Source of the DNA: Lentimicrobiaceae bacterium
GTDB lineage: Bacteria > Bacteroidota > Bacteroidia > Bacteroidales > F082
Direction: 5' to 3'
Length of the DNA: 38,428 bases
NCBI GenBank assembly: GCA_015061335.1
Contig: SUWT01000013.1
Span: 1 to 38,428, forward strand
The position numbers were made by a program, and so were the translations under genes. The notes below the pieces were generated by a model. It searched no databases. It was not told the DNA's origin and saw only the letters and a list, made by a program, of their open reading frames with translations. Position 1 is the first letter of the stretch; each line of letters opens with the position of its first letter. Below, piece after piece: positions 6,574 to 36,886 of the stretch.

Positions 6574-6595
6574 ATGAAATTATATTTTATTGATT

Positions 6596-9500: not shown

Positions 9501-9973
9501 GCACAACTGATGGAGATAATTTCCGTGATGTTGCTCAAGCATATACGATGGGAATTTTGTTAGAAAGAGCGAATTATTATTTAAAGCAAATATGCACTCG
9601 ATACCTATTGTCATCATATCCTGATTCGCTTGCAATTATGGTTCAAGATATGGAAATGGGTGGAGAATTACGTTCAGCTAGCTCCTTGTCAGGAGGAGAA
9701 ACTTTCTTGGTTTCCTTGTCTTTGGCATTAGGTTTGACTTCACTTAATGATGAGAATTTTAATATTGATATGCTTTTCATTGATGAAGGTTTTGGAACTC
9801 TTGACAACGAGTCACTTGATATGGTGATGAATACTTTGGAAAATCTTCATTGTCTTGGCAGAAAAGTTGGAATTATATCTCATGTAGATACTTTAAAAGA
9901 AAGAATACCTGCTCAGATTCAACTTGTTAGAGAAGGCAAATCGGCAAGTAGGGTTGAAATAATTAGGAATTAG
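6596..9973 (+). CDS. sbcC: Exonuclease subunit SbcC (SMC-like ATPase)
   Basis: Rad50-like partner of SbcD: a 1125-residue ATPase whose two half-domains clamp DNA for the nuclease. The Walker A motif CGETGSGKTT is near residue 37. The Q-loop region is QFIRSVMLAQGEFSTFLKS. Long coiled-coil arms (about 210-960) are interrupted by a zinc-hook CPVC near residue 546. The ABC signature SSLSGGETFLVSLSLAL and Walker B MLFIDEGFGTLD are near the C-terminus. The ATG at 6596 is preferred over an in-frame TTG at 6590 because the protein then begins MKIEKIIIQNLNS, the usual family start. The final codons (ATT AGG AAT TAG) lie in an AATTAGG heptamer array, so the terminal Ile-Arg-Asn and the stop are repeat-supplied. 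Confidence 0.97.
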   Translation: MKIEKIIIQNLNSIEDAEINFTNGVLEKEPLFLICGETGSGKTTILDAITLALYDKASRYENVKNNEKTENGNNSTKNTTNILRKGKNDGKAELHFSVKNTHYIATWLVHKTKSNTYTTSNRRKLEVVDDGIKIVLSTKIEEVNKKIEELIGLTYDQFIRSVMLAQGEFSTFLKSKRNEQSEILEMLTGTEVYSKIADAVKTRKGEAFYKKKEAETLCNSLKDKLLSEEEVEELNYSQKLLSQNISLKENELKKIESSISWIKRNNELRKEYDDIKALYDKVMEQINSQQYKDNQSVVDDYFKTSKERESLKELLRLESELLKINKNQDDDVRAFLNLNDSLQKEKDNREKLILQIDDVRDWIENHKDNKLVSDNLNLIVGLLNELCQISNLLLSKDKELFENESEKKATASQLQSLSQSFEELKKSKQKAEINLENLLEEFDSDEYKKLIEEQQKLNDDRKSYSERNAKLNTVKTVLEQYLELGRNIENEKIKCNNLKFSFNQKNDALLLAKSAFETKDTEFQKQKNMVEDWAKEYRLKLKEGEPCPVCGSREHYYKDENIVHTLFTSIENEWSNSKDSFEKAKDDLNKTEAELNAVIRNIDAEEKRLELLLNNLNKLCNNNPVFEIERIDVNILKYNNLILNIDKRIAEINAMLNNIAIAKKKIDEAQNNKRQIDDKYISVEKSLISKQNEYQQIELSLNTIKTVIQEQRIKFDEKEIAVNEYVKIDNWKQLFLSSSDGFINHIKVISSEWQGKLELLNNIEKQIINLDNIIEQCEKYVSITLPLINYDRNFAFESSITPLQSLIPLYSAVYEKIKERLTEKNRIEGNLNSVKKDIDVFIDNNVNIDFERLKYLSEINDIQYLVQKNKTLDDESIKCKNTLAIKSEEIDSHNNNESKPADDLNLEELQLSLISLTNEKKREEETLSEVKMKLALNAQNSADSLDYHKDLEEKERVYHLWEQLAKAIGTTDGDNFRDVAQAYTMGILLERANYYLKQICTRYLLSSYPDSLAIMVQDMEMGGELRSASSLSGGETFLVSLSLALGLTSLNDENFNIDMLFIDEGFGTLDNESLDMVMNTLENLHCLGRKVGIISHVDTLKERIPAQIQLVREGKSASRVEIIRN

Positions 9974-9988
9974 GAATTAGGAATTGGG
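9961..9988. repeat. AATTAGG heptamer array (4 units) at the sbcC stop
   Basis: Three exact AATTAGG units followed by AATTGGG, then a degenerate AATGATG that runs into GGTAGAGACG of the hairpin element. The sbcC TAG (9971-9973) is the TAG of the second unit. Confidence 0.9.
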
Positions 9989-9999
9989 AATGATGGTAG

Positions 10000-10044
10000 A
10001 GACGCGTCAATGTAACCTGCAAATAGAAAAACATTGACACGTCT
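10000..10044. repeat. AGACG hairpin repeat, copy 1
   Basis: An imperfect inverted repeat. The left arm AGACGCGTCAATGT pairs with the right arm ACATTGACACGTCT (one mismatch in 14) around an 18-base loop beginning AACCTGCAAATA. It is preceded by GATGGTAG and a heptamer array. It matches copies at 10061-10102 and 11296-11341 almost base for base, loop included, so it is a dispersed element and not just a terminator. Confidence 0.85.
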
Positions 10045-10058
10045 TAGGAATTAGGAAT
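10045..10058. repeat. Two heptamer units (TAGGAAT) between hairpin copies
   Basis: TAGGAATTAGGAAT, a short array in phase with the AATTAGG family, joins hairpin copies 1 and 2. The whole 9974-10120 spacer before rmuC is made almost entirely of these repeats. Confidence 0.75.
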
Positions 10059-10060
10059 AA

Positions 10061-10102
10061 ACGTCAATGTAACCTGCAAATAAAACAAACATTGACACGT
10101 CT
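10061..10102. repeat. AGACG hairpin repeat, copy 2 (left end shortened)
   Basis: Starts at ACGTCAATGTAACCTGC and ends at ACATTGACACGTCT. It keeps the loop but lacks the first bases of the left arm. It lies 18 bases before the rmuC start codon, so it would form a stem in the rmuC leader if transcription reads through from sbcC. Confidence 0.85.
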
Positions 10103-10120
10103 CAAAAAAAATAAAATAAT

Positions 10121-11311
10121 ATGACTTATTTATTCTTTATAATCGGATTTGTAATTGGCTCTTTATTAGTCGGTTTTATCTTAAAATCAAAGAACAGCAG
10201 TCTTAAAACACAAATTGATTTCATGAAAGAACAGGAAATCAAAAATGATGAGTTCAGAAACAAGCAGTTTGAGATTCAGATAAATGCATTGAAATCGGAG
10301 TTGCAGAACACTACGGAAAGATTGTTGGCGCAAAGAGAAGAATCTTTGGTGAGAGCCAATAATGTTCAGTTAGATGCGGTTCTCAATCCTTTGAAGAACG
10401 AGATTGAAGGAATGCGCAAGTCGATGACAGACAACATCAAAACGACTTCAGAAAACAAGGCGAGTCTGGAGAAAGCGATAGAAGAGCTTATGAAACGTAC
10501 GCAAGATATTGGTAATGACGCTAATAATCTTGCCAAAGCATTGAAAAACGAAACAAAGACGCAAGGCAATTGGGGTGAGTTGATCTTAGAAAACATACTT
10601 GAGAAATCGGGACTGACAGAAGGCGAGCATTATGAAAAGCAGACGACTCTGAAAGATTCATGCGGGAATATGCTTTTCCATGACGAGACGGGCAAACGCC
10701 TGATTCCTGATGTCGTCATTCATTATCCTGACAATAAAGATGTCGTTATAGATTCAAAAGTCTCTCTGACGGCATTTGTCGATTACTGTAATGCGTGCAA
10801 TGAAAATGAAAAATCGTTGGCGTTAAAGCGACATCTTCAAAGCATGAGAGCGCATTATAAGGAATTGCAGAAGAAGAACTACGCATCATATATCAAAGCA
10901 CCGCGTGTGAGTTTGGATTACGTAATTATGTTTGTTCCTAATGAATCGGCTATGCAACTTGCTATTTATGAAGATAATAGTCTTTGGCGTGAGGCTTTTG
11001 AGAATGGAGTTTTCATCACGAGCGAACAGAATCTGCTTGCGTTGTTGAGAATGATACAACTCGCTTGGACGCAGGTGAGACAGGCACGTAACCAGCAGGA
11101 GATTTTTGAAGCGGTGCAGAAACTCTTGGACAGAGTTAATGAATTCATGAAACGTTACGAAGACTTGGGCAAGAAGATAGAAAGTCTGCAAGGCAGTTAT
11201 GACTCGGTAAAGAACAAGTTATATGATGGCAATCAAAGCGTTGTGAAAGCAGCGAATAAGATTGTTGGAATGGCTGGAATTAGGATTGATGGTAGAGACG
11301 CGTCAATGTAA
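10121..11311 (+). CDS. rmuC: DNA recombination protein RmuC
   Basis: RmuC limits recombination-dependent inversion between short inverted repeats and carries a restriction-like nuclease fold. The 396-residue protein starts with one membrane anchor (YLFFIIGFVIGSLLVGFIL). A coiled coil follows (about 25-150), then the RmuC domain with GNWGELILENILEKSGL and the PD-(D/E)XK-like core PDVVIH…VVIDSKVSL (about 195-215). The C-terminus is helical. The final residues (GIRIDGRDASM) do not resemble the family. They are encoded by a GGAATTAGG unit plus the left arm of hairpin copy 3, which also gives the TAA. The gene lies 147 bases after sbcC on the same strand. A protein linked to inverted-repeat recombination thus sits among inverted repeats; I infer nothing causal from that. 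Confidence 0.95.
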   Translation: MTYLFFIIGFVIGSLLVGFILKSKNSSLKTQIDFMKEQEIKNDEFRNKQFEIQINALKSELQNTTERLLAQREESLVRANNVQLDAVLNPLKNEIEGMRKSMTDNIKTTSENKASLEKAIEELMKRTQDIGNDANNLAKALKNETKTQGNWGELILENILEKSGLTEGEHYEKQTTLKDSCGNMLFHDETGKRLIPDVVIHYPDNKDVVIDSKVSLTAFVDYCNACNENEKSLALKRHLQSMRAHYKELQKKNYASYIKAPRVSLDYVIMFVPNESAMQLAIYEDNSLWREAFENGVFITSEQNLLALLRMIQLAWTQVRQARNQQEIFEAVQKLLDRVNEFMKRYEDLGKKIESLQGSYDSVKNKLYDGNQSVVKAANKIVGMAGIRIDGRDASM

Positions 11312-11341
11312 CCTGCAAATAAAACAAACATTGATACGTCT
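11296..11341. repeat. AGACG hairpin repeat, copy 3, spanning the rmuC stop
   Basis: The left arm is AGACGCGTCAATGT, the loop AACCTGCAAATAAAACAA and the right arm ACATTGATACGTCT (two mismatches between arms). It is preceded by GGAATTAGGATTGATGGTAG, the same lead-in as copy 1. The left arm is translated as the end of RmuC, and TAA 11309-11311 is the arm-loop junction. Confidence 0.85.
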
Positions 11342-11345
11342 AAAG

Positions 11346-11388
11346 AAATCCCTCAAAGACTTATTCAATGAGGGATTTGTTTTCTTTA
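11346..11388. terminator. Bidirectional terminator between rmuC and the 178-residue gene
   Basis: A perfect 10-bp stem, AAATCCCTCA (11346-11355) with TGAGGGATTT (11369-11378), has a 13-base loop and is followed by GTTTTCTTT on the + strand. On the - strand a weaker T-containing tail (TCTTTA) follows. It lies between two convergent genes. Confidence 0.8.
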
Positions 11389-11410
11389 TATGACGTTGCT
11401 ACCATATTCT

Positions 11411-11947
11411 TTAATTCAAGCCTAACATCTTATATCCCATGGCGTTCAGCTCTACTGCCATTCCCATAAGATACATCTGATGAAGACTTTCCATATATGC
11501 TTCCAAGGCTTCTTTGGTTCCAGGTTCCACGTCTTCTTTACGTAATATAGTATTGGTTATTGAAGCACATTCTGCAACAATCTCCGTCATTTTCTTACAA
11601 CCTTCTTCGTCAAGTTTAAGAACGTCTTCAAGAATATATTCGTCCATCTCGTCGAAGCCGCGTTTGTCACGGATTCCTTCGTATAACGACAAAGGATTTA
11701 AGGCTCCGTATATCTCCCAGTCTTCGTCCCAGAATTTTGCCATCGCCATTCCTAAGAACATAACCCAACCTAAGGAGACCATAGGATATTCGTTAAATTC
11801 TCTCACGCCGTCAGGAAGATAAGCGTGTAACATATCCTGCCATCTCTCTTCAACATCAGGGCAGATGGGGAAACGCTCGCCAACGACATTCTCCTGCCTT
11901 AGATATTGCAATAATATTTGTTTTAGTTTATCGCCGTAGTTGTTCAT
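11411..11947 (-). CDS. Conserved hypothetical protein, 178 residues
   Basis: I do not recognise a named domain. The protein is acidic and mainly helical by composition, rich in Glu, Met and aromatic residues. It has a central hydrophobic stretch (MVSLGWVMFLGMAMAKFW, about 55-72) and no signal peptide, so it is probably a soluble, cytoplasmic helical protein. GC content and codon use resemble conserved chromosomal genes, not AT-rich accessory DNA, and it has its own TAnnTTTG promoter about 120 bases upstream and a terminator downstream. I believe similar proteins occur widely in Bacteroidales, but that is recollection. The only nearby same-strand neighbour is the galactose operon beyond a + strand lipoprotein gene, so context gives no function. 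Confidence 0.8.
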   Translation of the reverse strand: MNNYGDKLKQILLQYLRQENVVGERFPICPDVEERWQDMLHAYLPDGVREFNEYPMVSLGWVMFLGMAMAKFWDEDWEIYGALNPLSLYEGIRDKRGFDEMDEYILEDVLKLDEEGCKKMTEIVAECASITNTILRKEDVEPGTKEALEAYMESLHQMYLMGMAVELNAMGYKMLGLN

Positions 11948-12068
11948 GATGAAATATTAATTGTTATTGTTTTTTATCAATTTGTTATATAACGCCAATC
12001 TTTTTATTTTGTTTTGTGATGAGGAGTGTTTGGATAAAGTGTTATGAGCATATAATGTGAATATTTTA

Positions 12069-12076
12069 CAAAGTTA
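12069..12076 (-). promoter_or_regulatory. Promoter -7 box TAACTTTG for the 178-residue gene
   Basis: On the - strand, TAACTTTG matches TAnnTTTG exactly and lies about 120 bases before the ATG at 11947. No convincing TTTG -33 element is seen at the usual distance, only TTTAG-like sequence. Confidence 0.45.
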
Positions 12077-12221
12077 CGAAATAATGCTAAAGTAAAGGAA
12101 AAATATCAAAATAATTATGAAATTTTATTTCCCACAAAGATCTTTAAAGAAGTTTTAACAAATCGTTGCCAACATTTATGTCATTACTTTGTTTTTCAAT
12201 CAACATTTAAAAACAAATGCT

Positions 12222-12677
12222 ATGAAAAAGACTATTTTATTATTTGGATTATTTATCCTATCATTACCTTTGATTTTTACAAGCTGTAATGATGATGACT
12301 TCTCAGATGAAGTGATAATAACTGATAATGTCATTACCTTAGGCAATGCTATTTCTCCGATTACGTCTGTTTATAGTAAAACCGAAAACGACGATACTTT
12401 CATTATTGTCAACACCAATGCGATGCAGCTTATTTTGGAATTAGACAACAAACAAAGTATCCCGACAGGAAACATGCCGCTTACGCTCAACGGCGATTAC
12501 AGTGGAGAGATAACGATGATTTGGTCGGGAGTGGAATATCTTCTTACGGGAGATCTAAGCATCTCATTATCAGGTGATGTTTATACTATAGTGGCTTCAG
12601 GGAACGCCGCCTTGGATTATTACACCTTTATGCCGTTCAATTTGTATTACAAAGGAAAAGTCACTTCCACTAACTAA
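12222..12677 (+). CDS. Small lipoprotein of unknown function
   Basis: A 151-residue protein starting MKKTILLFGLFILSLPLIFTSC with a clear lipobox (FTSC, Cys about 22) followed by NDDD. The acidic +2 residues are typical of Bacteroidota lipoproteins, some of which are surface exposed. The mature part is Thr/Ser/Asn-rich and predicted beta-strand, with no motif I recognise. The ATG at 12222 is chosen over an upstream in-frame start at 12189 because it places the basic signal N-region directly before the hydrophobic core. A TTACTTTG sequence at 12184-12191 may be part of its promoter. It appears to be a single-gene unit ending in a hairpin at 12701-12749. Confidence 0.8.
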   Translation: MKKTILLFGLFILSLPLIFTSCNDDDFSDEVIITDNVITLGNAISPITSVYSKTENDDTFIIVNTNAMQLILELDNKQSIPTGNMPLTLNGDYSGEITMIWSGVEYLLTGDLSISLSGDVYTIVASGNAALDYYTFMPFNLYYKGKVTSTN

Positions 12678-12700
12678 GGATTTTTCATATACAATTTTTG

Positions 12701-12757
12701 AGACGTATCGATTATATATTGATTATATTTATGTGTAATTGATACGTCTTTGTTTTT
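12701..12757 (+). terminator. Hairpin after the lipoprotein gene, related to the AGACG repeat
   Basis: AGACGTATCGATT (12701-12713) pairs with AATTGATACGTCT (12737-12749) with one mismatch, followed by TTGTTTTTT. It works as a terminator on paper. The arm AGACGTATCRAT is also close to the right arm of hairpin copy 3 (reverse complement AGACGTATCAATGT), so it may be a diverged member of the same element with a different loop. Confidence 0.7.
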
Positions 12758-12780
12758 TAGCCTTCATATTATTTCAAAAA

Positions 12781-12837
12781 AGAGACGCCATAATATTGAC
12801 GTCTCTACCGAAAGCTAACAGCTTATTGCTGACAGCT
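12781..12837 (-). repeat. Composite repeat: AGCTGTY heptamer array plus AGAGACG hairpin
   Basis: Read on the - strand: AGCTGTC, AGCAATA and AGCTGTT units then AGCT (12837-12813), then TTCGGTAGAGACG and an imperfect hairpin whose outer arms are AGAGACG (12806-12800) and CGTCTCT (12787-12781), followed by a T run. The order heptamer array, GGTAGAGACG, hairpin is the same as at 9961-10044, although the heptamer sequence differs. It lies just downstream of the MFS permease stop and may double as the terminator of the galactose operon. Confidence 0.75.
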
Positions 12838-12843
12838 ATTTTA

Positions 12844-14133
12844 TTATTCCACTGGAATGTCTTTATTAACATTCTTCGATCCTACTAAAGCGTAGAACAA
12901 CAAGAAAGCGAGACCTGCTGCTACTACCCAGTAACTTACTAAATAGTTGCCGCTTAAGTCAACGACAAAGTTTTGTACGAATGGCAAGATGCCGCCGCCG
13001 CAAACCAATGCCATGAAGATACCTGATGCTTTTTCTGTGTATTTGCCAAGACCTTCAACAGCTAAGTTGAAGATGCCGCCCCACATGACTGATGTGCAGA
13101 GACCACATAATACTAACAATGCTGCATTGACCGGAACTTCTGCTATACCAAAACCTTCTGTGCCTTTGAATACAGGAAGTCCGACAACTGTTGATGGGTT
13201 TAAGAATATTGCCAGGACAACGAAAATCAAACCGATGCCTGATACTGTTGTCAACATTGTTTTTGCAGAAACCTTAGCACCTAATGCTGCACCGGCTAAA
13301 CGACCTACAAGCATTAAGAACCAGTATGTTGCTGTTACTGTGCCGGCAATAGCTTCTGCTCCTGTTGCAACATTCAATCCGCCGTTTTGTAACCATTTTT
13401 GTAAAACATTAGGGATACCGACTTCAACACCGACATAGATGAAAATCGCTACTGCTCCTAAAATGAAGTGACGGAATGACATTGGACCATATTGTGATTT
13501 TTCGTCTTTTTCAATTTTCTGAACAGGATTTTCAGGAATATCTGTCAAGAATATTACTACAAATGCTAATGCAAAGATACCTAAAGCGATAAACATCAAT
13601 GGGAATACGTCGCTGATGACAGCATTCTTGATACCGTTAGGAATTAAAACACCTGTTAAGAAGATACATGCTGTACCCATCAATGAGTTGAAAGAACCAC
13701 CAACTTGAATGAGTTGGTTGCCTTTGTTACCGCCGCCGCCGAGTTTGTTAAGCATAGGGTTGACAACGATGTTCAACATACACATTGAGAAACCAGCGAT
13801 GAATGCGCCGAGAAGATAGATGCCGAAAGCTGTGTTGCTGTCGATCAATCCTGAAAGTGTTTGGATGCCAACGCCGACGAAACCTACTGTAACAGCTGCC
13901 AATGCGGTTTTCTTATAACCGTATTTTTGTAACATGTTACCTGCTGGGATTCCCATCACTGCGTAAGCGATGAAGTTAGCCAAAACGCCTAATGTTCCCA
14001 TCCAGTTTGCTACGCTAAATTGATTCTTTAAAATGTCACCCATCGGTGATGCTAAGTTGGTGACGAATGAAATCATACCGAACAAAAGAATCATCACGAT
14101 GATTGCTAAGAAATTACCTTTTTTCTTTTCCAT
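12844..14133 (-). CDS. MFS hexose permease (FGHS / glucose-galactose type)
   Basis: A 429-residue, 12-helix major facilitator of the fucose-galactose-glucose:H+ symporter family, in the inner membrane. The N-terminal half shows FVTNLASPMGDILKNQF in helix 1 and the MFS loop 2-3 motif IPAGNMLQKYGYKKT. A cytoplasmic linker (PENPVQKIEKDEKSQYG) separates it from the second six-helix bundle. Bacteroides homologues are annotated as glucose/galactose transporters and sit with galM and galK as here. As the last gene of the operon, only 12 bases after galM, it most likely imports galactose or glucose for the pathway encoded upstream. Substrate choice is inferred from neighbours. GC-richer codons than in flanking accessory genes suggest good expression. 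Confidence 0.9.
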   Translation of the reverse strand: MEKKKGNFLAIIVMILLFGMISFVTNLASPMGDILKNQFSVANWMGTLGVLANFIAYAVMGIPAGNMLQKYGYKKTALAAVTVGFVGVGIQTLSGLIDSNTAFGIYLLGAFIAGFSMCMLNIVVNPMLNKLGGGGNKGNQLIQVGGSFNSLMGTACIFLTGVLIPNGIKNAVISDVFPLMFIALGIFALAFVVIFLTDIPENPVQKIEKDEKSQYGPMSFRHFILGAVAIFIYVGVEVGIPNVLQKWLQNGGLNVATGAEAIAGTVTATYWFLMLVGRLAGAALGAKVSAKTMLTTVSGIGLIFVVLAIFLNPSTVVGLPVFKGTEGFGIAEVPVNAALLVLCGLCTSVMWGGIFNLAVEGLGKYTEKASGIFMALVCGGGILPFVQNFVVDLSGNYLVSYWVVAAGLAFLLFYALVGSKNVNKDIPVE

Positions 14134-14145
14134 TGTTTTATTTTT

Positions 14146-15204
14146 TTATAATGTTGAAAATTTAAATTTGATTACTTCTTTATATTCTTCTCCTGGACGT
14201 AAGACTACCTTAGGGAAGTTGGTTTTGTTTGGAGAGTCGGGGAGTGCCTGACATTCCATCGCCACGCCTTCATAGTCTTCGTAGCTCTTGCCGCATTTAC
14301 CTTCCGGGCAGCCGCTTAGCCAGTTGCCTGTGTAAATTTGAAGTCCTGGCTGTGTGGTGAACACATCGACTTTGATACCTGAAGCATCGTTGCTTAATGT
14401 AGCGGCTTGGCGTATCACACCTTTATTATAATTGTCGAGAACCCAGCAGCTGTCGTAGCCTTTGCCGTTGACCAAAGCAGGGAAGTCGGCTTTGATGTCA
14501 CGACCGATGAGTTTAGTCTCGGTGAAATCCATTGGAGTTTCTTTAACAGTAGCGATCTCGCCTGTTGTAATCAACTCGTCTGTCGCAGGAAGATAGTTCT
14601 GAGCATAAATCTTAAGATTATGATCTAAGATATTGCCGTTGCCTTCGCCTTTGAGATTGAAATAGACGTGGTTGGTTAGATTCACTATTGTAGGTTCGTT
14701 GCTTTCGGCTCTTAATGTGAGAGTGAGTTCGTTATCGTCGCTCCAGTGATATTCTGCTTTAGCGAGGAGCTCTCCGGGATAACCGCATTCTCCGTCTTCA
14801 GAGAAATATGTAAATTCCACATTGCCGTTATCGTTTATCTCTCCGCACCATAATTGATTTGCGAAGCCGTCGTTACCTCCGTGAAGGTGATGTTTGCCGT
14901 CGCCAGTATTGAGTACCAACTGATATTGTTTTTCGTCGATGCTGAACTTGCCTTCGCATATTCTGTTGGAGAAACGTCCCGGTACCTTACCTGCGCATGG
15001 TCCGTCGCCGATATATGATTTTAAATCTTTATAACCGAGAACTACGTCGGTCATTTTTCCTTCTTTGTCCGGAACTACGATGGAAACGATGCCGGCACCG
15101 ATGTTACATAATGTCACTGTCGCGCCATTAGCGTTGGTAATTTTATAAACATAGATAGCACCGCCATCTTCCAATGTTCCGTGTTCTATTCTTTCGATGT
15201 TCAT
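14146..15204 (-). CDS. galM: Aldose 1-epimerase (galactose mutarotase)
   Basis: GalM interconverts alpha and beta anomers of galactose or glucose so that galactokinase receives the alpha form. The 352-residue protein shows the family's key parts: NRICEGKFSIDEKQYQL with GKHHLHGGNDGF (catalytic-site His near residues 105-110), NLTNHVYFNLKG (second essential His near 180), and the C-terminal VAMECQALPDSPN with the catalytic Glu, followed by LRPGEEY. No signal peptide is present, so it is cytoplasmic. It lies between the nucleotidyltransferase gene (115-base spacer containing inverted heptamer arrays) and the MFS permease gene (12-base spacer). Confidence 0.95.
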   Translation of the reverse strand: MNIERIEHGTLEDGGAIYVYKITNANGATVTLCNIGAGIVSIVVPDKEGKMTDVVLGYKDLKSYIGDGPCAGKVPGRFSNRICEGKFSIDEKQYQLVLNTGDGKHHLHGGNDGFANQLWCGEINDNGNVEFTYFSEDGECGYPGELLAKAEYHWSDDNELTLTLRAESNEPTIVNLTNHVYFNLKGEGNGNILDHNLKIYAQNYLPATDELITTGEIATVKETPMDFTETKLIGRDIKADFPALVNGKGYDSCWVLDNYNKGVIRQAATLSNDASGIKVDVFTTQPGLQIYTGNWLSGCPEGKCGKSYEDYEGVAMECQALPDSPNKTNFPKVVLRPGEEYKEVIKFKFSTL

Positions 15205-15214
15205 AGTTTTATTA

Positions 15215-15316
15215 GTTTAATGTTTAAAGTTTAAGGTTTAGAGTAGTTTAAAGTCTATAAGATTAAAGTGATAAGTTTATTTTAGACCTTAAACATTAAG
15301 CCTTAAACCTTAAACC
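15215..15316. repeat. Inverted GTTTAAG / CTTAAAC heptamer arrays
   Basis: The left array at 15215-15242 reads GTTTAAT, GTTTAAA, GTTTAAG, GTTTAGA. The right array at 15287-15316 is the inverted form: CCTTAAA, CATTAAG, CCTTAAA, CCTTAAA, CC. The arrays face each other across about 44 bases and can fold into a long imperfect hairpin. The right array ends 3 bases from the nucleotidyltransferase stop; the left starts 10 bases from the galM ATG. Each unit contains TAA on at least one strand. Confidence 0.85.
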
Positions 15317-15319
15317 AAA

Positions 15320-16222
15320 TTATTTCCATAAAACATTAGGATAAACTCCTCTGTCAACTAAATTCTGAATCTTAGCTACTACATCAGGTTTGTCTTCTTT
15401 GTAAGTCACGCCAAACCAGACGGCGTCGCTTGACAAGACTTTCAGTTTTGCTTCGCCGCTGTTGATGAGTTTGTTGACCATCAATGGAATGAAGAACTCA
15501 GCCTTGATGTTGGTCTTTGCCTGTGTATCCAAGAATTCTTTGAAACCTTCTGTTGAATGTGTGAAGAAGTCGGGAGTGAAACCGAAGAAGTTCATTGAAA
15601 CTAAAGTCTCTAAGTCGAGTGGGTGAGAGCCTTCTTCATCGGTATAAGCTGCGCCGTCTTCTGTCTTTGCTATCGAAGTACGCTCGACGATAGTCTGTAA
15701 ATAATGGTTTTCGTCCTGAGTGCAGACGCCTCTTGAAACAGTTCCGAATTCTGATAATGTGTTTCTCAATTTATAAGCCACCATGCTGTATGCACCGTTT
15801 TTACCTTCGCATTCGGTGAGATATTTTGCCATCACTTCGTAAGCCTCTTTGCCGTAGAAATCGTCGGCATTGATTACAGCGAAAGGCTCTTTAATGACAT
15901 CAGCTGCCATCAAAACAGCGTGGCATGTTCCCCAAGGTTTCACTCTGCCTTCCGGTAAAGAATAACCTTCAGGAAGACATTCCAATCCTTGATAAACATA
16001 TTCTACAGGTATTCCGAAACGTTCTGTGTTGTTTACTTTTTCAAATGCTTCAGCGAAGTCTTTACGAATGACGAAAACGACTTTGCCGAAACCGGCTCTT
16101 TTTGCATCGAAGATTGAATAATCCAAGATAGCTTCGTTGTTAGGACCAACGCCGTCCATTTGCTTCAAGGCTCCGTAACGAGAACCCATTCCAGCTGCTA
16201 ATACTAATAATGTTGGTTTCAT
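15320..16222 (-). CDS. Sugar-phosphate nucleotidyltransferase
   Basis: A 300-residue cytoplasmic enzyme of the NTP_transferase family (GT-A fold), which makes NDP-sugars from NTP and sugar 1-phosphate. The signature is at the N-terminus: LVLAAGMGSRYGALKQMDGVGP, a variant of the usual LAAGxGTRLxPxTxxxPK. The metal-binding Asp region is AVINADDFYGKEAYEV (about 110-125). FVIRKDF, YSMVAYKLRNTLSEFGTVSRG and the C-terminal VTYKEDKPDVVAKIQNLVDRGVYP complete a family often seen beside sugar kinases in Bacteroidales. The sugar is not known. The position between galK and galM, with no galT in the operon, suggests it may activate galactose 1-phosphate or glucose 1-phosphate with UTP. That is inference. 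Confidence 0.87.
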   Translation of the reverse strand: MKPTLLVLAAGMGSRYGALKQMDGVGPNNEAILDYSIFDAKRAGFGKVVFVIRKDFAEAFEKVNNTERFGIPVEYVYQGLECLPEGYSLPEGRVKPWGTCHAVLMAADVIKEPFAVINADDFYGKEAYEVMAKYLTECEGKNGAYSMVAYKLRNTLSEFGTVSRGVCTQDENHYLQTIVERTSIAKTEDGAAYTDEEGSHPLDLETLVSMNFFGFTPDFFTHSTEGFKEFLDTQAKTNIKAEFFIPLMVNKLINSGEAKLKVLSSDAVWFGVTYKEDKPDVVAKIQNLVDRGVYPNVLWK

Positions 16223-16237
16223 TGTTTTATTTTATTT

Positions 16238-16268
16238 GTCAACGGACAACAGACAACAGTCAACAGTC
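16238..16268. repeat. GTCAACA heptamer array (4.4 units)
   Basis: GTCAACG, GACAACA, GACAACA, GTCAACA, GTC. On the operon's sense (-) strand this reads TGTTGAC and related units, with a TGA in the GTCAACA-type units. It lies 16 bases upstream of the nucleotidyltransferase ATG. Confidence 0.85.
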
Positions 16269-16303
16269 TTTGTCCAATTTCTATTGTTAATCTGTTTGGC
16301 ATT

Positions 16304-16365
16304 GGGCTATGAGCTGTGAGTCGTGAGCTTTTGTCATGCTCATTGCTCGATGCTCATGGCTCAAA
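16304..16365. repeat. Inverted GAGC-type heptamer arrays
   Basis: The left array GGGCTAT, GAGCTGT, GAGTCGT, GAGC (16304-16328) faces the right array GCTCATT, GCTCGAT, GCTCATG, GCTCAAA (16338-16365). The two are reverse-complement related and separated by 9 bases, so the pair can fold as an imperfect hairpin. It is the middle of three heptamer families in the galK-nucleotidyltransferase spacer. Confidence 0.85.
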
Positions 16366-16382
16366 GTAAGTTGATTTTCATT

Positions 16383-16450
16383 GATGTAATTAATACATCT
16401 CTACAATTCCTAATTCCTAACTCCTAATTCCTAATTCCTAACTCCTAATT
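16383..16450 (-). repeat. Composite repeat: AATTAGG array plus short TAGAGATG hairpin at the galK stop
   Basis: On the + strand: GATGTA-ATTAA-TACATC hairpin (16383-16399), then TCTAC, then ATTCCTA x2, ACTCCTA, ATTCCTA x2, ACTCCTA, ATT (16406-16450). On the - strand this is a TAGGAAT/TAGGAGT array followed by TGTAGAGATG and a hairpin, the same order as the composite at 9961-10044. The galK TAA (16451-16449) overlaps the array by two bases. Confidence 0.85.
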
Positions 16451-17597
16451 ATTTGATACGTCTCGCTCCATCAGAAATCACTACATCATAAACCTTAGGC
16501 TCGCGATTGAACTTGGCGAGATATTCTTTCTTTGCTGTAGCGATGAAGTCGTCGTATAATTCTTCTTTAACTAAGTTGATGGTACAACCGCCGAAGCCGC
16601 CGCCCATGACGCGAGAACCGGTGACGCCGCATTTTTTGGCTACGTCGTTCAAGAAATCTAACTCTTCGCAGCTCACTTCATATTCTTTGCTCATGCCGTA
16701 GTGAGTGCCGAACATTCTGTCGCCAACAGTTTCATAGTCGCCTTTCTCCAAAGCATCGCATACGTCGAGGACGCGTTGTTTCTCGCCGATGACATAAACA
16801 GCACGTTTGTAGTCTTCTTCAGAGATTTCAGCTTTCACCTCGTCTAACATTTCCATTGTGGCGTCGCTGAGATAATTCACTTCTTGATGTTTTGCCTTGA
16901 TATGAGCGCAGGCGTTTTCGCACGACTCGCGACGTTTGTTATATGCCGATGATGCCAACTCGTGTTTTACGACAGTGTCCAAGAGAACGACTTTATAACC
17001 TTCAGGATTGAATGGAAAATATTCAAATTCCATGGTAGCGCAGTTGAGGCGCATGAGATGACCTTTCTTTCCGAATACAGAAGCGAACTGATCCATGATG
17101 CCGCATTTCACTCCGCAGTAGTTATGTTCTGTAGATTGACCTATTCTTGCTAATTCAAAGCGGTCGATGTTGAGATTAAAAATTTCATTCAAGGCATTGG
17201 CGAAAGTGCTTTCCAAGGCGGCTGATGACGACATGCCGGCACCGAGAGGAACATCGCCTACGAAAACAGTGTCGAAGCCTTTAGGTTCGAAGCCGCGTTT
17301 CTTCATCTCGCGACAGACACCGAAGATATAACGAGCCCATGACTCTTGAGGAGCGTCTTCTTCGTTCATACCAAACTCAACTTGTCCTTCATAATCTACT
17401 GAGTAAGCACGGACTTTATCTGTTCCATTTGGATTGATAGCTGCGTATATTCCTTTGTCGATAGCACCTGGAAATACGAAACCGCCGTTATAGTCGGTAT
17501 GCTCGCCAATGAGATTTACACGACCAGGGGAGGTGTAAACCATATAGTTATCGCCAAATAATGACTTAAATTTTTCTTCTATGATTCTTGTATCCAT
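16449..17597 (-). CDS. galK: Galactokinase
   Basis: GalK phosphorylates alpha-D-galactose to galactose 1-phosphate with ATP, the first committed step of the Leloir pathway. The 382-residue GHMP kinase carries the galactokinase signature PGRVNLIGEHTDYNGGFVFP (about 24-43), the ATP loop PLGAGMSSSAALEST (about 107-121), the catalytic-Asp region CGIMDQFASVFG, and the C-terminal GHMP motif VTGSRVMGGGFGGCTINLV. Length and motifs are standard and the end DGARRIK is family-like. It is first in the operon galK, nucleotidyltransferase, galM, MFS permease, behind a promoter at 17646-17653. The 226-base spacer after it is unusually long for a Bacteroidales operon and filled with repeats. Confidence 0.97.
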   Translation of the reverse strand: MDTRIIEEKFKSLFGDNYMVYTSPGRVNLIGEHTDYNGGFVFPGAIDKGIYAAINPNGTDKVRAYSVDYEGQVEFGMNEEDAPQESWARYIFGVCREMKKRGFEPKGFDTVFVGDVPLGAGMSSSAALESTFANALNEIFNLNIDRFELARIGQSTEHNYCGVKCGIMDQFASVFGKKGHLMRLNCATMEFEYFPFNPEGYKVVLLDTVVKHELASSAYNKRRESCENACAHIKAKHQEVNYLSDATMEMLDEVKAEISEEDYKRAVYVIGEKQRVLDVCDALEKGDYETVGDRMFGTHYGMSKEYEVSCEELDFLNDVAKKCGVTGSRVMGGGFGGCTINLVKEELYDDFIATAKKEYLAKFNREPKVYDVVISDGARRIK

Positions 17598-17645
17598 GAT
17601 GATTAGGTTTTTTATTTCAAAAATTCCACAAATTTATTTAATCCT

Positions 17646-17653
17646 CAAAAGTA
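17646..17653 (-). promoter_or_regulatory. galK operon promoter, -7 box TACTTTTG
   Basis: On the - strand, TACTTTTG matches TAnnTTTG and lies about 50 bases upstream of the galK ATG. No convincing TTTG -33 is present. No obvious operator palindrome is seen in the 117-base gap. Confidence 0.5.
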
Positions 17654-17714
17654 CGAAATTTTATTTTACGAATGACACCTTATATTAATAAAATTTGAAT
17701 GAAAGAAGACTACA

Positions 17715-17975
17715 ATGTCGGTTACTACAAAATCGAGAGCATTGCGCCAACGGGCATTAGATGAATATCTGCAGAGTGGTGGATTAATGTATCACACACG
17801 CAAACTATATGGGAAATCGCTAACAACTTACTCGACAAAATCGTCAGAACGTTTGCTCAGCAAGAAAAGTTACGCAGCTGATATGGCTTTTATCTCTGAT
17901 AGAGAGGATGTGGTGACATCACAAAATTTAGGATGGAGACTGGAGAATGTGGTTCTGCTCGAATTGGCTTTGTAA
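17715..17975 (+). pseudogene. Remnant of a DUF4143 AAA-type ATPase
   Basis: The 86-codon frame is not an intact gene. Its second half (SYAADMAFISDREDVV…QNLGWRLENVVLLEL) closely resembles the C-terminal core of AAA ATPases with DUF4143, where the pattern is Y-Y-x-x-D-x-A-F followed by GRLLENxVxxEL. The first part (RQRALDEYLQSGGL) resembles the DEYxxYGGxP segment that precedes the C-terminal core. Between them, family-like sequence (TIWEIANNLLDKIVRTFAQ) appears in a different + frame around 17798-17855. The ATPase domain itself is missing. So it has lost its 5' part and has internal frameshift or deletion damage. It lies alone between galK and the fucosidase gene. Confidence 0.72.
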
Positions 17976-18046
17976 ACCACATTATTATGTGAAATAGAAG
18001 GTTTATTTTTTATTCGCAAACTAAATATATCAGCTGTATTTTTTCT

Positions 18047-18054
18047 TACCTTTG
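18047..18054 (+). promoter_or_regulatory. Fucosidase promoter, -7 box TACCTTTG
   Basis: Exact TAnnTTTG match 25 bases upstream of the fucosidase ATG at 18080. No clear TTTG at -33 is seen. Confidence 0.55.
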
Positions 18055-18079
18055 TAAAAAATCGTAAATAAGCATTAAT

Positions 18080-20113
18080 ATGAAAAAATCATTATTCTGC
18101 ATATTGATAATCAGTATATTATTGTCTTGCACTAACATCAGCAATCACATTCCTGCTGCGATAGAACCTATTCCTTCTCAACAGCAAATCGAGTGGCAAA
18201 AACTTGAAACTTACGCCTTTATCCATTTTGGTTTAAATACTTACAACGACCTTGAATGGGGCTACGGCAACACTCCGGCTTCTACCTTTAACCCGACAAA
18301 CCTCGACTGCGAACAATGGGTCGCGACTTTGAAACAATGTGGCATGAAAGGCGTGATTCTTACGGCGAAACATCACGACGGATTCTGCCTCTGGCAAACA
18401 AAGACTACCGATTACAGCATCGCTAACTCTCCTTATAAAAACGGTAATGGCGATATGGTGAAAGAGCTCTCCGACGCCTGCAAAAAACATGGTCTTAAAT
18501 TCGGTCTTTATCTCTCGCCTTGGGATAGAAACAATGCGGAATATGGTCGTGAGGATTATGTGGAGACTTACCACAAACAAATCGACGAACTTACAAGCAA
18601 TTACGGTGAGTTGTTTGAGTTCTGGTTTGATGGCGCTAATGGCGGCAACGGATATTACGGCGGAACAAATGAATCGCGTTCCATCGACGCAAGAAAATAT
18701 TACGATTATGAACGTGCCCGCGACACTATATTGAAACGTCATCCTGATGCCATGATTTTCGGAGGTACTTGCCAGACAATACGTTGGGTCGGTAACGAAC
18801 AGGGCTGGGCTGGCGATACGGATTGGTGTATGATAAATCCGGGATTGTCCGACAACACAAAACATCTCAACCACGGTTCTGAAAACGGAACTCATTGGAT
18901 TCCTGCTGAAGTCGATGTCTCTATCCGCCCGGGTTGGTTTTATCACAAAAGAGAAGATCATCAGGTGAAGTCGCTCGCACATCTCACTGATATTTACTAC
19001 CGTAGCGTTGGGCATAACGCAAATCTCCTTCTTAATTTCCCTATCAGTCTCGACGGAAAAATTCCTGCTTTAGATTCTTTGAGAGCGATGGAATGGCATG
19101 ACGTCATCAACAACGATTTCAAAGAAAATCTCTTAAAAGACGCTAAGATAAAAGTCGATAACGAAAGAGGAAATAAGTTTAAGGCTGAGAATGTAACTGA
19201 TGACAATTGGGACACATATTGGGCAACGGAAGACGATTATAACTTCGGAACTATCTCATTTACTTTTGATAAGCCTGTGAAGATGAATAGGGTAGTGCTT
19301 CAGGAATATATCCCGCTCGGACAAAGAGTCAAGGATTTTTATATGGAAGGAGAACTCGATGGCAAGTGGTTCAAGATTAACGCTTTCGATACTTTATCGA
19401 CAATAGGTTATAAACGAATCGTTCGTTTCAATACAGTAGAACTTGATAAGTTGATAATTTATTTTGAGGAAAGTCGCGGTCCATTATGTATCAATAACAT
19501 AGAAGCATATTGCGCGCCAATACTTCTGACCGAACCGACAATTTTCCGTAATTATGAAAATATCGTGACAATAGAATCTTCCGACAAAGACGCAGAAGTC
19601 TATTACACAATCGACGGAACTAAACCTGATGAAAATTCTTTAAGATACGAAAAGCCATTTACATATAATAATAAAGGTGTCGTCAAGGCAATTGCATACG
19701 ATCCTATTTCAAAGAAAACGAGCGATGTGGCGATGAAGGAATTGGATTTGCCGAAGGAATATTATAAAACATCATCGAACAGTAGGATATTTGACGGTAA
19801 TACTAATTCTGTGATTTATCTTAATATTGATGAGCCAATTATAATTACATTTAATGAAAAACAAAACATCTCGGGATTCAGATACACTCCTAATCAAGCT
19901 CGCGATGCTTCAGGACATATAGTCGATTATGAATTATATGTTGATGGAAAATTGATTATGAAATCATCTTTCGGAAATATCAAAAACAATCCGATAGAGC
20001 AAGTTGTTAAGTTTGAAAGTATCAAAGGAAAAGAAGTGAAATTCATTCCAAAGAGCAATACTGATAATGCGAAGAATTGCTGTATAGCTGAATTTTCGGT
20101 AATAGCTGATTAA
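18080..20113 (+). CDS. GH29 alpha-L-fucosidase, lipoprotein
   Basis: A 677-residue retaining exo-fucosidase expected to remove alpha-linked fucose from host or dietary glycans. The signal is lipoprotein type (FCILIISILLSC, Cys about 17). The GH29 barrel runs from about 35 to 345 with FIHFGLNTYNDLEWGYG, ILTAKHHDGFCLW (substrate-binding His pair), FGLYLSPWDRN, and FEFWFDGANG with the nucleophile Asp near 184. An F5/8-type C domain follows (about 355-470), then a chitobiase-type beta domain (YYTIDGTKPDENSLRYEKPF, about 485-550), then a second F5/8-like region to the end. This layout is common in Bacteroidales fucosidases of the broad-specificity subgroup. Its stop TAA overlaps an AATTAGG array shared with the convergent thioesterase gene. 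Confidence 0.95.
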   Translation: MKKSLFCILIISILLSCTNISNHIPAAIEPIPSQQQIEWQKLETYAFIHFGLNTYNDLEWGYGNTPASTFNPTNLDCEQWVATLKQCGMKGVILTAKHHDGFCLWQTKTTDYSIANSPYKNGNGDMVKELSDACKKHGLKFGLYLSPWDRNNAEYGREDYVETYHKQIDELTSNYGELFEFWFDGANGGNGYYGGTNESRSIDARKYYDYERARDTILKRHPDAMIFGGTCQTIRWVGNEQGWAGDTDWCMINPGLSDNTKHLNHGSENGTHWIPAEVDVSIRPGWFYHKREDHQVKSLAHLTDIYYRSVGHNANLLLNFPISLDGKIPALDSLRAMEWHDVINNDFKENLLKDAKIKVDNERGNKFKAENVTDDNWDTYWATEDDYNFGTISFTFDKPVKMNRVVLQEYIPLGQRVKDFYMEGELDGKWFKINAFDTLSTIGYKRIVRFNTVELDKLIIYFEESRGPLCINNIEAYCAPILLTEPTIFRNYENIVTIESSDKDAEVYYTIDGTKPDENSLRYEKPFTYNNKGVVKAIAYDPISKKTSDVAMKELDLPKEYYKTSSNSRIFDGNTNSVIYLNIDEPIIITFNEKQNISGFRYTPNQARDASGHIVDYELYVDGKLIMKSSFGNIKNNPIEQVVKFESIKGKEVKFIPKSNTDNAKNCCIAEFSVIAD

Positions 20114-20143
20114 TTAGGAATTAGGAATTAGGAATTAGGAATT
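20112..20143. repeat. AATTAGG heptamer array (4.6 units) shared by two convergent gene ends
   Basis: Four exact AATTAGG units and a partial AATT. The fucosidase TAA (20111-20113) overlaps the first two bases. The thioesterase TAA on the - strand (20130-20128) lies inside the third unit, so its last five residues (LIPNS) are encoded by the array. Confidence 0.92.
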
Positions 20144-20532
20144 AATATTTTGTCAAATATCTCGTGTGTCTTTAATCTGCCATTGACAATGCAAACGCAT
20201 TCTACGACTGCTTTTACACAAAGTTTCTCATCCTCGGCACGATAAATGTCTTGCTGAAAAATATATCTTATACCTTCTTTCTTAACATTTAATCTGCTAT
20301 AAAACATATCACCGCCTTTCAACGATGTCTTGTATTCTAATACTATACGCGCTACTACCGGAACAATACCTTGCTCTTGTAAAGTGGAAAATTTTATTCC
20401 CCTGGATTCTAAAAATTCATGACGCGTATGCTCCGTATAATGCTGATAATTAGCATTATTAACAATACCTTGCGAATCACATTCGTAATCACGAACCTTC
20501 ATCTTCAATTCATATATATAATCAGTTTTCAT
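20128..20532 (-). CDS. Hotdog-fold acyl-CoA thioesterase (YbgC/4HBT type)
   Basis: A 134-residue 4-hydroxybenzoyl-CoA-thioesterase-like protein that should hydrolyse a CoA or ACP thioester in the cytoplasm. The N-terminal active-site motif is intact: VRDYECDSQGIVNNANYQHY, with the catalytic Asp and following helix as in YbgC and FadM. Strands containing VPVVARIVLEYKTSL, GDMFYSRLNV and AVVECVCIVNG follow. The natural acyl substrate is not known. The gene starts 5 bases after the ABC ATPase stop and so appears to be the last gene of the transporter operon. The terminal residues LIPNS and the stop come from the heptamer array, so the ancestral C-terminus was probably slightly different. Confidence 0.88.
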   Translation of the reverse strand: MKTDYIYELKMKVRDYECDSQGIVNNANYQHYTEHTRHEFLESRGIKFSTLQEQGIVPVVARIVLEYKTSLKGGDMFYSRLNVKKEGIRYIFQQDIYRAEDEKLCVKAVVECVCIVNGRLKTHEIFDKILIPNS

Positions 20533-36743: not shown

Positions 36744-36776
36744 TTTGTTACTGTATAAAAAAAAGTTGTATCTTTG
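36744..36776 (+). promoter_or_regulatory. SRP RNA promoter (TTTG -33, TATCTTTG -7)
   Basis: TTTG at 36744-36747 and TATCTTTG at 36769-36776 are separated by 21 bases, matching both elements of the Bacteroidota promoter. The RNA begins about 5-7 bases downstream. This is the best promoter in the window and a guide to spacing for the others. Confidence 0.8.
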
Positions 36777-36780
36777 CAGT

Positions 36781-36875
36781 GGGTAAGTCTTATACGACCA
36801 GCTCCTGTTGAATCCCCCAGGACCGGAAGGTAGCAAGGGTAAATGGTTGAGCGGTGCGATATTTGCTTACCTTTT
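36781..36875 (+). ncRNA. ffs: Signal recognition particle RNA (small bacterial type)
   Basis: About 95 bases holding the conserved SRP domain IV core: CCCCCAGGACCGGAAGGTAG followed by CAAGGG, with the GGAA tetraloop and the asymmetric and symmetric internal loops that bind Ffh. The ends pair (GGTAAG 36782-36787 with CTTACC 36866-36871) and a T6 run follows, so the terminal helix also acts as terminator. This is the Alu-less 4.5S-like form. It guides co-translational membrane targeting. A GTG-started frame overlaps its 3' part but is not a credible gene start. Confidence 0.95.
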
Positions 36876-36886
36876 TTAATTTAGAT

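Follow-up and report, generated by a model that had tools for sequence, protein, structure and literature searches.

The 38,428-nucleotide contig SUWT01000013.1 of a Lentimicrobiaceae bacterium (Bacteroidota; GenBank assembly GCA_015061335.1), which we refer to in full as 'the window', carries several short tandem arrays whose sequences are unrelated but whose repeat unit is always 7 nucleotides (nt) long. An earlier inspection of the same DNA, 'the original prediction', listed these heptamer arrays and proposed that they form a class defined by stop codons in every reading frame. Here, we describe the arrays, their counterparts in relatives and in other phyla, and their relationship to genes. 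The account that we favor, with a probability of about 0.62, is that they are fast-turnover elements, grown by slippage, copied around the genome and filtered by selection.

Arrays in the window

Arrays in the window were located with Tandem Repeats Finder (TRF) and with a scan of our own. Four have the unit AATTAGG, and all four are found by both methods. The first (9961–9991, plus strand, 4.4 units) provides the final codons and the TAG stop (9971–9973) of an SbcC-type gene at 6590–9973 (Pfam AAA_23 and SbcC_Walker_B), the protein of which ends EIIRN*. A short array of 2.1 units follows at 10044–10058, also on the plus strand. The third, with 6.6 units, lies at 16405–16450 on the minus strand (CCTAATT on the plus strand) and adjoins a CTCTAC motif; the sister species introduced below has an array of the same unit at the corresponding place. 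The fourth (20112–20144, plus strand, 4.7 units) lies between two convergent genes. It supplies two letters of the stop codon of a fucosidase gene (18080–20113), and the entire stop codon of a thioesterase gene on the minus strand (20128–20532).

The unit GTTTAAR forms an inverted pair, with its left arm at 15215–15240 on the plus strand (TRF, own scan and inverted-repeat search) and its partner at 15282–15316 on the minus strand (TRF and inverted-repeat search). The arms are 31 nt long and 81% complementary, and the whole block, of ~115 base pairs (bp), matches other places in the source genome and in the sister species at ~74–80% identity. An array of CAACRGW (GTCAACA in the original prediction) occupies 16240–16268 on the plus strand (TRF and own scan); the TTTGTCC tail behind it recurs behind several other CAACRGW arrays. 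All of these arrays were clear where the original prediction had placed them. Two further entries on its list proved weak. The GAGC-type heptamers at 16304–16364 are degenerate, and TRF scores them only at 16336–16364; by eye, forward units (GAGC) are followed by reversed ones (GCTC), and the inverted-repeat search reports no inverted pair there. The degenerate AGCTNNN units at 12813–12837 (AGCTGTY, plus strand) were seen by eye only; they are scored by neither TRF nor our own scan, and fall below all thresholds used. The window has 3 exact period-7 runs of 10 or more matches; the figure for 30 simulated sequences is 0.0.

Predominance of period 7

The source genome (G000) comprises 2.58 Mb in 143 contigs, of which the window is contig C87, and is 91.8% complete. 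Our sample of it, made up of the window and 40 further stretches, amounts to 603,909 bases (23% of the genome) and was scanned for arrays of periods 4 to 15 with a score of 12 or more. The counts, in order of period, are 1, 0, 7, 90, 11, 7, 3, 1, 7, 4, 62 and 1. The 62 arrays of period 14 are 2 × 7; apart from 7 and 14, no period from 4 to 15 exceeds 11. In Markov controls (the mean of two second-order sets), period 7 occurs 0 times and any period at most once. The comparison on which the original prediction had staked itself, period 7 against periods 6 and 8, thus comes out at 90 arrays against 7 and 11. Array density in the sample is 171 per 100 kb of non-coding and 2.7 per 100 kb of coding DNA, figures that are biased upward because the window and 21 of the 40 stretches (~400 kb) lie on contigs already known to carry AATTAGG. 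Multi-copy, dispersed, mainly non-coding and far in excess of repeats of other unit lengths, the arrays of the window belong to the known class of heptanucleotide tandem repeats, termed short tandemly repeated repetitive sequences (STRR) or long simple sequence repeats (LSSR).

Period 7 ranks first in six of the eight other genus members that were sampled. Among these is the sister species (G009), with a median reciprocal-best protein identity to the source of 82% over the 54 pairs found, and DNA 85–86% identical to the sugar gene cluster of the window. Arrays of period 8 are common in the sister species (loci L107–L126; 47 against 75 of period 7), and much less so in the source (11 against 90). 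Stretches of relatives were partly picked near known matches, and densities there are accordingly not estimates. Further afield, 20 stretches from 20 other Bacteroidota genomes, each the first bases of contig 1, contain 15 period-7 arrays against at most 2 of any other period; these 15 lie in five stretches, nine of them in one, and two of the genomes already had AATTAGG matches. Around CAACRGW arrays used as seeds, and with the seeds themselves left out of the counts, period 7 again prevails: 70 arrays against 11 for the next best period at 31 loci of Bacteroidota, 74 (4 of them runs of N) against 15 at 35 loci of Cyanobacteria, and 16 against 4 at 14 other loci. The phylum of these 80 named loci was assigned from their titles, with unclassified records counted as 'other'.

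Several contigs of the sister species (among C5, C51, C66, C77 and C79) start or finish within a few bases of AATTAGG arrays. Arrays probably break assemblies, so array numbers may be underestimated.

Unit vocabulary and its spread

The 90 arrays of the source genome use about 40 consensus units, many of them singletons. The commonest are AATTAGG (16 arrays), AACAGAC and AAACTTT (7 each), AAAATTG (6) and AACAGTC (5). Across the whole genome, the string AATTAGGAATTAGGAATT has 63 matches and its reversed control 0. Units change stepwise within arrays; among 660 differences between successive units in the source, the sister species and the other genus members, C is exchanged with G in 3 and A with T in 134. 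Palindromic 4-mers show no excess in the units, and pyrimidine–purine steps are rarer than in shuffled units (z = −1.7, −2.8 and −4.3). The unit vocabulary of any one species is large and in part peculiar to it.

Some units occur much further afield. Three tandem copies of AATTAGG occur in 16 of 392 Bacteroidota genomes (the source included) and in 14 of 179 genera, with 0 occurrences of the reversed control in the rows listed. Three copies of CAACRGW, the one family searched for beyond the phylum, occur in Bacteroidota, in many Cyanobacteria and in scattered others (at least 114 stretches, 80 of 114 examined), and the matches listed include records named Nostoc, Anabaena, Microcoleus, Tychonema and Moorena. 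Together with the unit tally, the scans around these seeds bear out the suggestion that Bacteroidota hold a parallel to the heptamer repeats of Cyanobacteria, with many units in one region. In a viral collection described as 2.9 million contigs, 46 stretches have three copies of CAACRGW, and so the arrays look chromosomal rather than virus-carried.

Must units be copied from place to place at all? Each array might instead have grown from its own flanking sequence by purely local slippage, with 7 nt favored by the polymerase footprint (Mrazek 2007, as cited in MacGregor 2015 and Rehm 2015) and shared units arising by convergence. Many units do occur once (44 distinct units among 108 arrays of the source genome), and heptanucleotides have been reported, with citation of Mrazek 2007, as the most abundant class of long repeats in most genomes examined. 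Against this, AATTAGG accounts for 16 of 90 arrays, far above an even draw from about 1,170 heptamer classes, and, as described below, gaps between genes switch wholesale from one shared unit to another, while the same vocabulary turns up inside genes whose aligned relatives lack arrays. We consider local slippage alone unlikely, though it is the strongest competitor to growth combined with copying.

Turnover between sister species

Orthologous gaps of the source and the sister species show that arrays differ, are swapped or are absent. Of 32 such gaps, 20 have arrays in neither species, seven in both, five in the sister species only and none in the source only; the excess of sister-only gaps is no evidence, because stretches of that species were picked around its own AATTAGG matches, which inflates this category. 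In four of the seven gaps with arrays in both species, no common unit could be seen by eye. The gap at 16223–16448 of the window illustrates a swap. Its CAACRGW array and GAGC-type stretch are replaced in the sister species by a GTTTAAA inverted pair, and an AATTCCT array with CTCTAC-tagged sequence is present in both. At 20114, likewise, the AATTAGG array of the source faces a different repeat in the sister species.

The sequences that surround arrays of one unit have little in common. Within 30 bp of flank in the source genome, the longest shared match averages 6.45 for same-unit arrays and 6.12 for different-unit arrays, and matches of 11 or more occur in 3.8% and 1.5% of pairs, respectively. 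Flanks of same-unit arrays being barely more alike, it is mostly the array alone that is found at a new place. The GTTTAAR pair, which recurs together with its center, and the frequent nearness of AATTAGG arrays to AGAGAYGY hairpins are exceptions. The order of unit variants within arrays is shared to some degree: shared 21-mers number 129 in the source (shuffled mean 87, maximum 118) and 130 in the sister species (shuffled mean 73, maximum 108). That flanks are unshared, and unit order weakly shared, is what local slippage would also give.

Neighboring arrays (less than 200 bp apart) are inverted partners in 4 of 32 cases in the source, 6 of 24 in the sister species and 7 of 11 in the other genus members; 6, 2 and 1, respectively, are in direct orientation, and the rest are unrelated. 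For random array pairs, the figure is about 5–13% for each arrangement. At locus L075 of the source genome (8087–8280), two blocks of ~94 bp, each with a GTTTAAA array and alike as far as could be seen, stand in tandem. A related block is found at 6424, and each block adjoins an open reading frame (ORF) of 417 amino acids.

Arrays within conserved genes

A minority of arrays, 25 of 252, lie inside ORFs of at least 70 amino acids (15 of 108 in the source, 6 of 83 in the sister species and 4 of 61 in the others). Several of these, at loci L058, L076 and L142, are located in a short ORF or where an ORF ends, and may not be true inserts. For five genes we checked relatives, aligning 9 of the 16 loci returned for a methyltransferase, 8 of 20 for a BirA-like ligase, 9 of 16 for an adenosyltransferase, one relative out of 14 loci for a MATE protein and 6 of 20 loci for an ABC ATPase. 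In each, in-frame array sequence is missing from relatives, which for the ABC ATPase are distant ones only.

The methyltransferase (Pfam Methyltransf_32) is the most instructive. Seven other relatives have four residues between FVESSIE.Y, or its equivalent, and LDVLIALHAC. At this loop the source protein has ACQQTTDNRQQTSSELAHST, derived from a CAACAGA array. In the sister protein, the insert at the loop is a different one that derives from octamers, and a second insert, of heptamers, lies elsewhere. In the BirA-like ligase (Pfam BPL_LplA_LipB), source and sister have linker arrays built from different units, and the six other relatives aligned have none. The MATE gene of the source is 33 nt longer than that of the sister species, with 7- and 8-nt arrays just before the second MatE half, and its C-terminus has been rewritten by AATTAGG (ELGIRN*). 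The cobalamin adenosyltransferase, for which no match was found in the sister species, has four residues more than the eight relatives aligned, and in the ABC ATPase different and shorter sequence takes the place of the loop that follows the Walker A region.

Named Bacteroidota provide further cases. Array peptides lie in open frame in TrpE- and TrpG-type proteins of a Chitinophagaceae metagenome-assembled genome (MAG), in two oxidoreductase proteins (Fer4_20/Pyr_redox_2 and DHODB type) of a Muribaculaceae MAG, in BioA of Parafilimonas terrae DSM 28286, and in the ATP synthase gamma subunit (AtpG) of a Bacteroidaceae MAG, where the preceding ORF is presumably the end of AtpA. Three of these proteins were aligned to solved structures in the PDB, and in each the homologue is gapped at the array peptide: by 6 residues in TrpG, 8 in BioA, and 12, with further gaps, in AtpG. 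Arrays thus occur in frame in the loops of conserved proteins.

In the sister species, two ORFs of locus L122, with arrays at 4448–4481 and 13030–13057, have similar end residues and different heptamer arrays in what is seemingly the same loop; by Pfam, the first contains a type IX secretion system (T9SS) sorting domain.

A bolder extension of the account that we favor can be drawn from these genes. An unrecognized DNA-writing process common to Bacteroidota and Cyanobacteria might draw on a pool of 7- or 8-nt arrays peculiar to each species and copy them, as modules in their own right, to new places, overwriting or lengthening sites and repeatedly hitting the same tolerant loops. Core enzymes (ATP synthase gamma, TrpE/TrpG, BioA, the BirA-like ligase and the methyltransferase) would then gain ready-made low-complexity peptides, with stop content and period 7 setting entry into genes. 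We regard this extension as tentative, and would sooner bet against it than for it.

Stop codons and gene ends

The arithmetic behind the original prediction holds: some three units with a stop are enough to close every frame. By inspection, AATTAGG and GTTTAAG have stops on both strands and GTCAACA on the reverse strand only, and AACAGAC, the joint second commonest unit of the source genome (7 of 90 arrays), is free of stops on both. Distinct units with a stop on at least one strand number 37 of 44 in the source, 20 of 24 in the sister species, 19 of 27 in the other genus members and 50 of 61 in named Bacteroidota, and are little enriched over shuffled units (expected fractions 0.71, 0.69, 0.73 and 0.70). 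Stops on both strands are in modest excess. They occur, in the same order, in 17 of 44, 12 of 24, 11 of 27 and 20 of 61 distinct units, against expected fractions of 0.27, 0.24, 0.20 and 0.23 (p = 0.09, 0.006, 0.013 and 0.09), the three sets from the genus not being independent. With intergenic arrays only, the excess is clearer, and they occur in 17 of 36, 12 of 20, 11 of 26 and 19 of 46, against 0.31, 0.27, 0.20 and 0.25. Stops therefore seem not to be purely incidental in Bacteroidota. In Cyanobacteria, stops occur on at least one strand in 27 of 42 units (expected 0.58), on both strands in 8 of 42 (0.19), and on both strands of intergenic units in 8 of 41 (0.18).

Among arrays inside genes, the coding strand bears a stop in 2 of 15 cases in the source, 0 of 6 in the sister species, 1 of 4 in the other genus members and 10 of 41 in named Bacteroidota (seeds included). 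Among arrays in gaps between co-directional genes, the sense strand bears one in 54 of 67, 48 of 50 and 24 of 31 cases in the first three of these sets. For the source genome the difference is significant (Fisher p = 1.7 × 10^−6). A sieve would predict such a difference, but it is partly built in, because an open frame cannot contain an in-frame stop. With this reservation, the supposition that the arrays found inside genes would be the stop-free ones is upheld.

An excess of arrays at gene ends had also been foreseen, and it exists but is weak. Counted in gaps between co-directional genes, arrays no more than 15 nt from a gene boundary number 69 at the upstream stop and 36 at the downstream start (p = 0.0017). 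The 252 arrays contain 69 ORF stop codons, with a few arrays holding two, and four ORF start codons. With in-ORF arrays excluded and random windows of equal length for comparison, 39 of 219 arrays contain an ORF stop (about 26 expected) and 4 of 219 an ORF start (about 28 expected). Avoidance of starts is thus stronger than preference for gene ends, although it is partly built in, because an ORF start by definition lies downstream of a stop.

Are the arrays, then, stop cassettes, kept at gene ends by selection because they halt read-through, or translation in the wrong frame, on both strands? The excess of both-strand stops among distinct Bacteroidota units would fit, as would the enrichment of YTAR tetramers and depletion of RTAY in the units, the proximity of arrays to upstream stops (69 against 36), and the genes (SbcC type, MATE and others) whose stop codons arrays supply. 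The excess over random windows is small, however, stop-free AACAGAC is among the commonest units, and Cyanobacteria show no excess of stops and have the GGGAATC and GGGGATT families, which by inspection are stop-free. We judge selected cassettes improbable, and find no support for stops as the defining property of these arrays. Stops look mainly like a filter on array survival, rather than a selected function.

At locus L140 of another genus member (G023), three ORFs that end nearly alike (VTRKIIKN*) have their stop codons inside arrays (2468, 5096 and 7766). Perhaps these are related genes ended by arrays.

Hairpins, mobility and RNA structure

Hairpins accompany some of the arrays. One tagged with GTAGAGACG lies at 9996–10044 (arms 10000–10013 and 10031–10044), just after the first AATTAGG array of the window, and the inverted-repeat search reports a further arm at 10089–10103. 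A second GTAGAGACG hairpin lies at 11292–11341 (arms 11296–11309 and 11328–11341), with one AATTAGG-like unit before it. Hairpins with GTAGAGACG or AGACGYRTC occur in several copies in the window (9996–10103, 11292–11341 and 12700–12806), and resemble GTAG-tagged repetitive extragenic palindromes (REPs). AATTAGG arrays are often near hairpins with AGAGAYGY: of the intergenic AGAGAYGY sites, 10 of 29 in the source genome and 12 of 19 in the sister species have an array no more than 60 bp away (fractions for control positions, 0.13 and 0.23).

This proximity, and the existence of GTAG-tagged REPs as a known superfamily (PMC3733652), invite the idea that arrays ride on GTAGAGACG hairpins mobilized by a REP-associated tyrosine (RAYT, Y1) transposase or by a reverse transcriptase. 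Profile searches speak against it. Y1_Tnp (PF01797) had no match in the 91.8% complete source genome and matched in 5 of 14 control genomes, and RVT_1 (PF00078) had no match in the source, G011 or G015, with matches in the other six of nine genomes, array-poor ones included. G011 is listed as 100% complete and has 16 arrays in 100 kb. Many arrays, moreover, have no such hairpin alongside. We rejected Y1/RAYT mobilization, given the lack of Y1_Tnp in the source, and templating by an RVT_1 reverse transcriptase, given the lack of matches in array-bearing G000 and G011; of all the explanations weighed here, mobilization by either enzyme is the least credible.

The arrays might act in RNA, as terminators or as sites for a repeat-binding regulator of the S1, Csp or Csr type, as proposed for TAACTGA repeats. 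Near-perfect inverted pairs are seen among them (in the other genus members, 7 of 11 adjacent pairs), and gaps with arrays fold better than array-free gaps in the source (mean z = −2.2 against −1.1). The difference is reversed in the sister species (−2.0 against −2.4) and in the other genus members (−0.9 against −1.7), and a conserved binding site would not be expected to change its vocabulary from one sister species to the other, or to swap units at a single site, as the arrays do. A general role as hairpin or terminator was rejected, since array gaps are better folded in the source genome only, and to RNA-level function as a whole we give little credence.

How arrays may arise and spread

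Slippage, copying and selection, the combination that we favor, would work as follows. Polymerase slippage, with a favored register of 7, and sometimes 8, nt, would both lengthen arrays and mutate them. New arrays would be written elsewhere by copying from existing ones, for example by template switching at microhomology. Selection would then act as a sieve: arrays with stops would persist in intergenic DNA and where genes end, those without stops could persist inside genes as well if their length keeps the frame, and arrays at start codons would be removed.

Several observations weigh against this account. Copying between loci is inferred, and no event was observed. The GTTTAAR pair recurs as a block of ~115 bp, array and center together, which speaks against movement of the array alone. 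In the other genus members, shared 21-mers show no excess (49 against a shuffled mean of 60), and with unit order so weakly shared, some arrays may have been born independently. The both-strand excess of stops in Bacteroidota units is modest, but a pure sieve does not predict it. Period 7 does not lead everywhere: in 20-kb samples it ties with period 9 in G008 (2 against 2) and falls below period 8 in G015 (1 against 2). Finally, the genes are calls of our own simple ORF caller, and the choice of sister stretches noted above inflates one class of gaps.

Relation to known repeats

Much of this is already in print. Heptamer arrays, their occurrence in Bacteroidetes, and the all-frame-stop argument appear in MacGregor 2015 (PMC4679880) and Rehm 2015 (PMC4692102), both of which cite Mrazek 2007 for a proposed 7-nt slippage register. 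MacGregor makes the all-frame-stop argument for TAACTGA direct repeats, found in marine Beggiatoaceae, Cyanobacteria and five Bacteroidetes. The likeness is close: heptamer arrays with other heptamers alongside in Bacteroidetes, placed between genes and at ORF ends, closing all frames in one orientation and translatable in the other inside ORFs. That system, as described, has one unit, mostly just upstream of starts, whereas here dozens of units avoid starts, and inserts in conserved enzymes are compared with relatives.

Cyanobacterial STRR likewise have 7-nt units in several families per genome (three in Calothrix PCC7601, according to Rehm), and the CAACRGW unit of the window occurs in cyanobacteria. 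The present arrays differ in being from Bacteroidota, in their dozens of units, some in inverted pairs, in their in-frame inserts, checked against relatives, and in their modest excess of both-strand stops. The GGGAATC and GGGGAYT heptamers of Xanthomonas and Nostoc (Rehm 2015) are also over-represented intergenic arrays that vary in length and sequence between close relatives; unlike ours they are G-rich and quadruplex-forming, and by inspection stop-free.

Two other systems place DNA in genes. Rickettsia palindromic elements (PMC10969869) are short and lie in frame in unrelated genes, but are ~150 bp long and fall into defined families, whereas the arrays are roughly 20–100 nt, with many units. 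Borg repeats (PMC9879509) are fast-evolving arrays in intergenic DNA and ORFs that add disordered peptide; they are described as locus-unique, perfect and locally derived, whereas our arrays are imperfect and have units common to many loci. The GTAGAGACG hairpins beside some arrays resemble the GTAG-tagged REP superfamily, which the pertinent part of PMC3733652 lists for Proteobacteria, Cyanobacteria, Chloroflexi and the Planctomycetes–Verrucomicrobia–Chlamydiae (PVC) group, with CGTC repeats listed for Bacteroidetes.

In the open-access literature we found no report of heptamer arrays inserted into conserved genes of Bacteroidota, nor of swapping between sister species with a multi-unit vocabulary. 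Searches there with array and peptide strings gave matches for one 10-mer only, none on the subject by title. As far as that literature goes, the swapping, with its multi-unit vocabulary, and the in-frame inserts checked against relatives are apparently new.

Although heptanucleotide repeats were noticed years ago, no mechanism has been demonstrated for them. Swaps in gaps and inserts in genes are comparable events, and whether arrays are copied, locally grown or selected is testable by comparison of strains. If arrays are indeed copied into genes, this would be a general route to new loop peptides in Bacteroidota, and perhaps in Cyanobacteria, comparable with the Rickettsia elements but with far more sequence variety. 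Annotators should note that QQTTDN, STVNGQQ, SQLSAVS or C-terminal IRN peptides can be array-derived.

Elsewhere in the window, the sole match at the Rfam gathering threshold is a Bacteroidales small signal recognition particle (SRP) RNA at 36774–36876 on the plus strand (RF04183, 86 bits).

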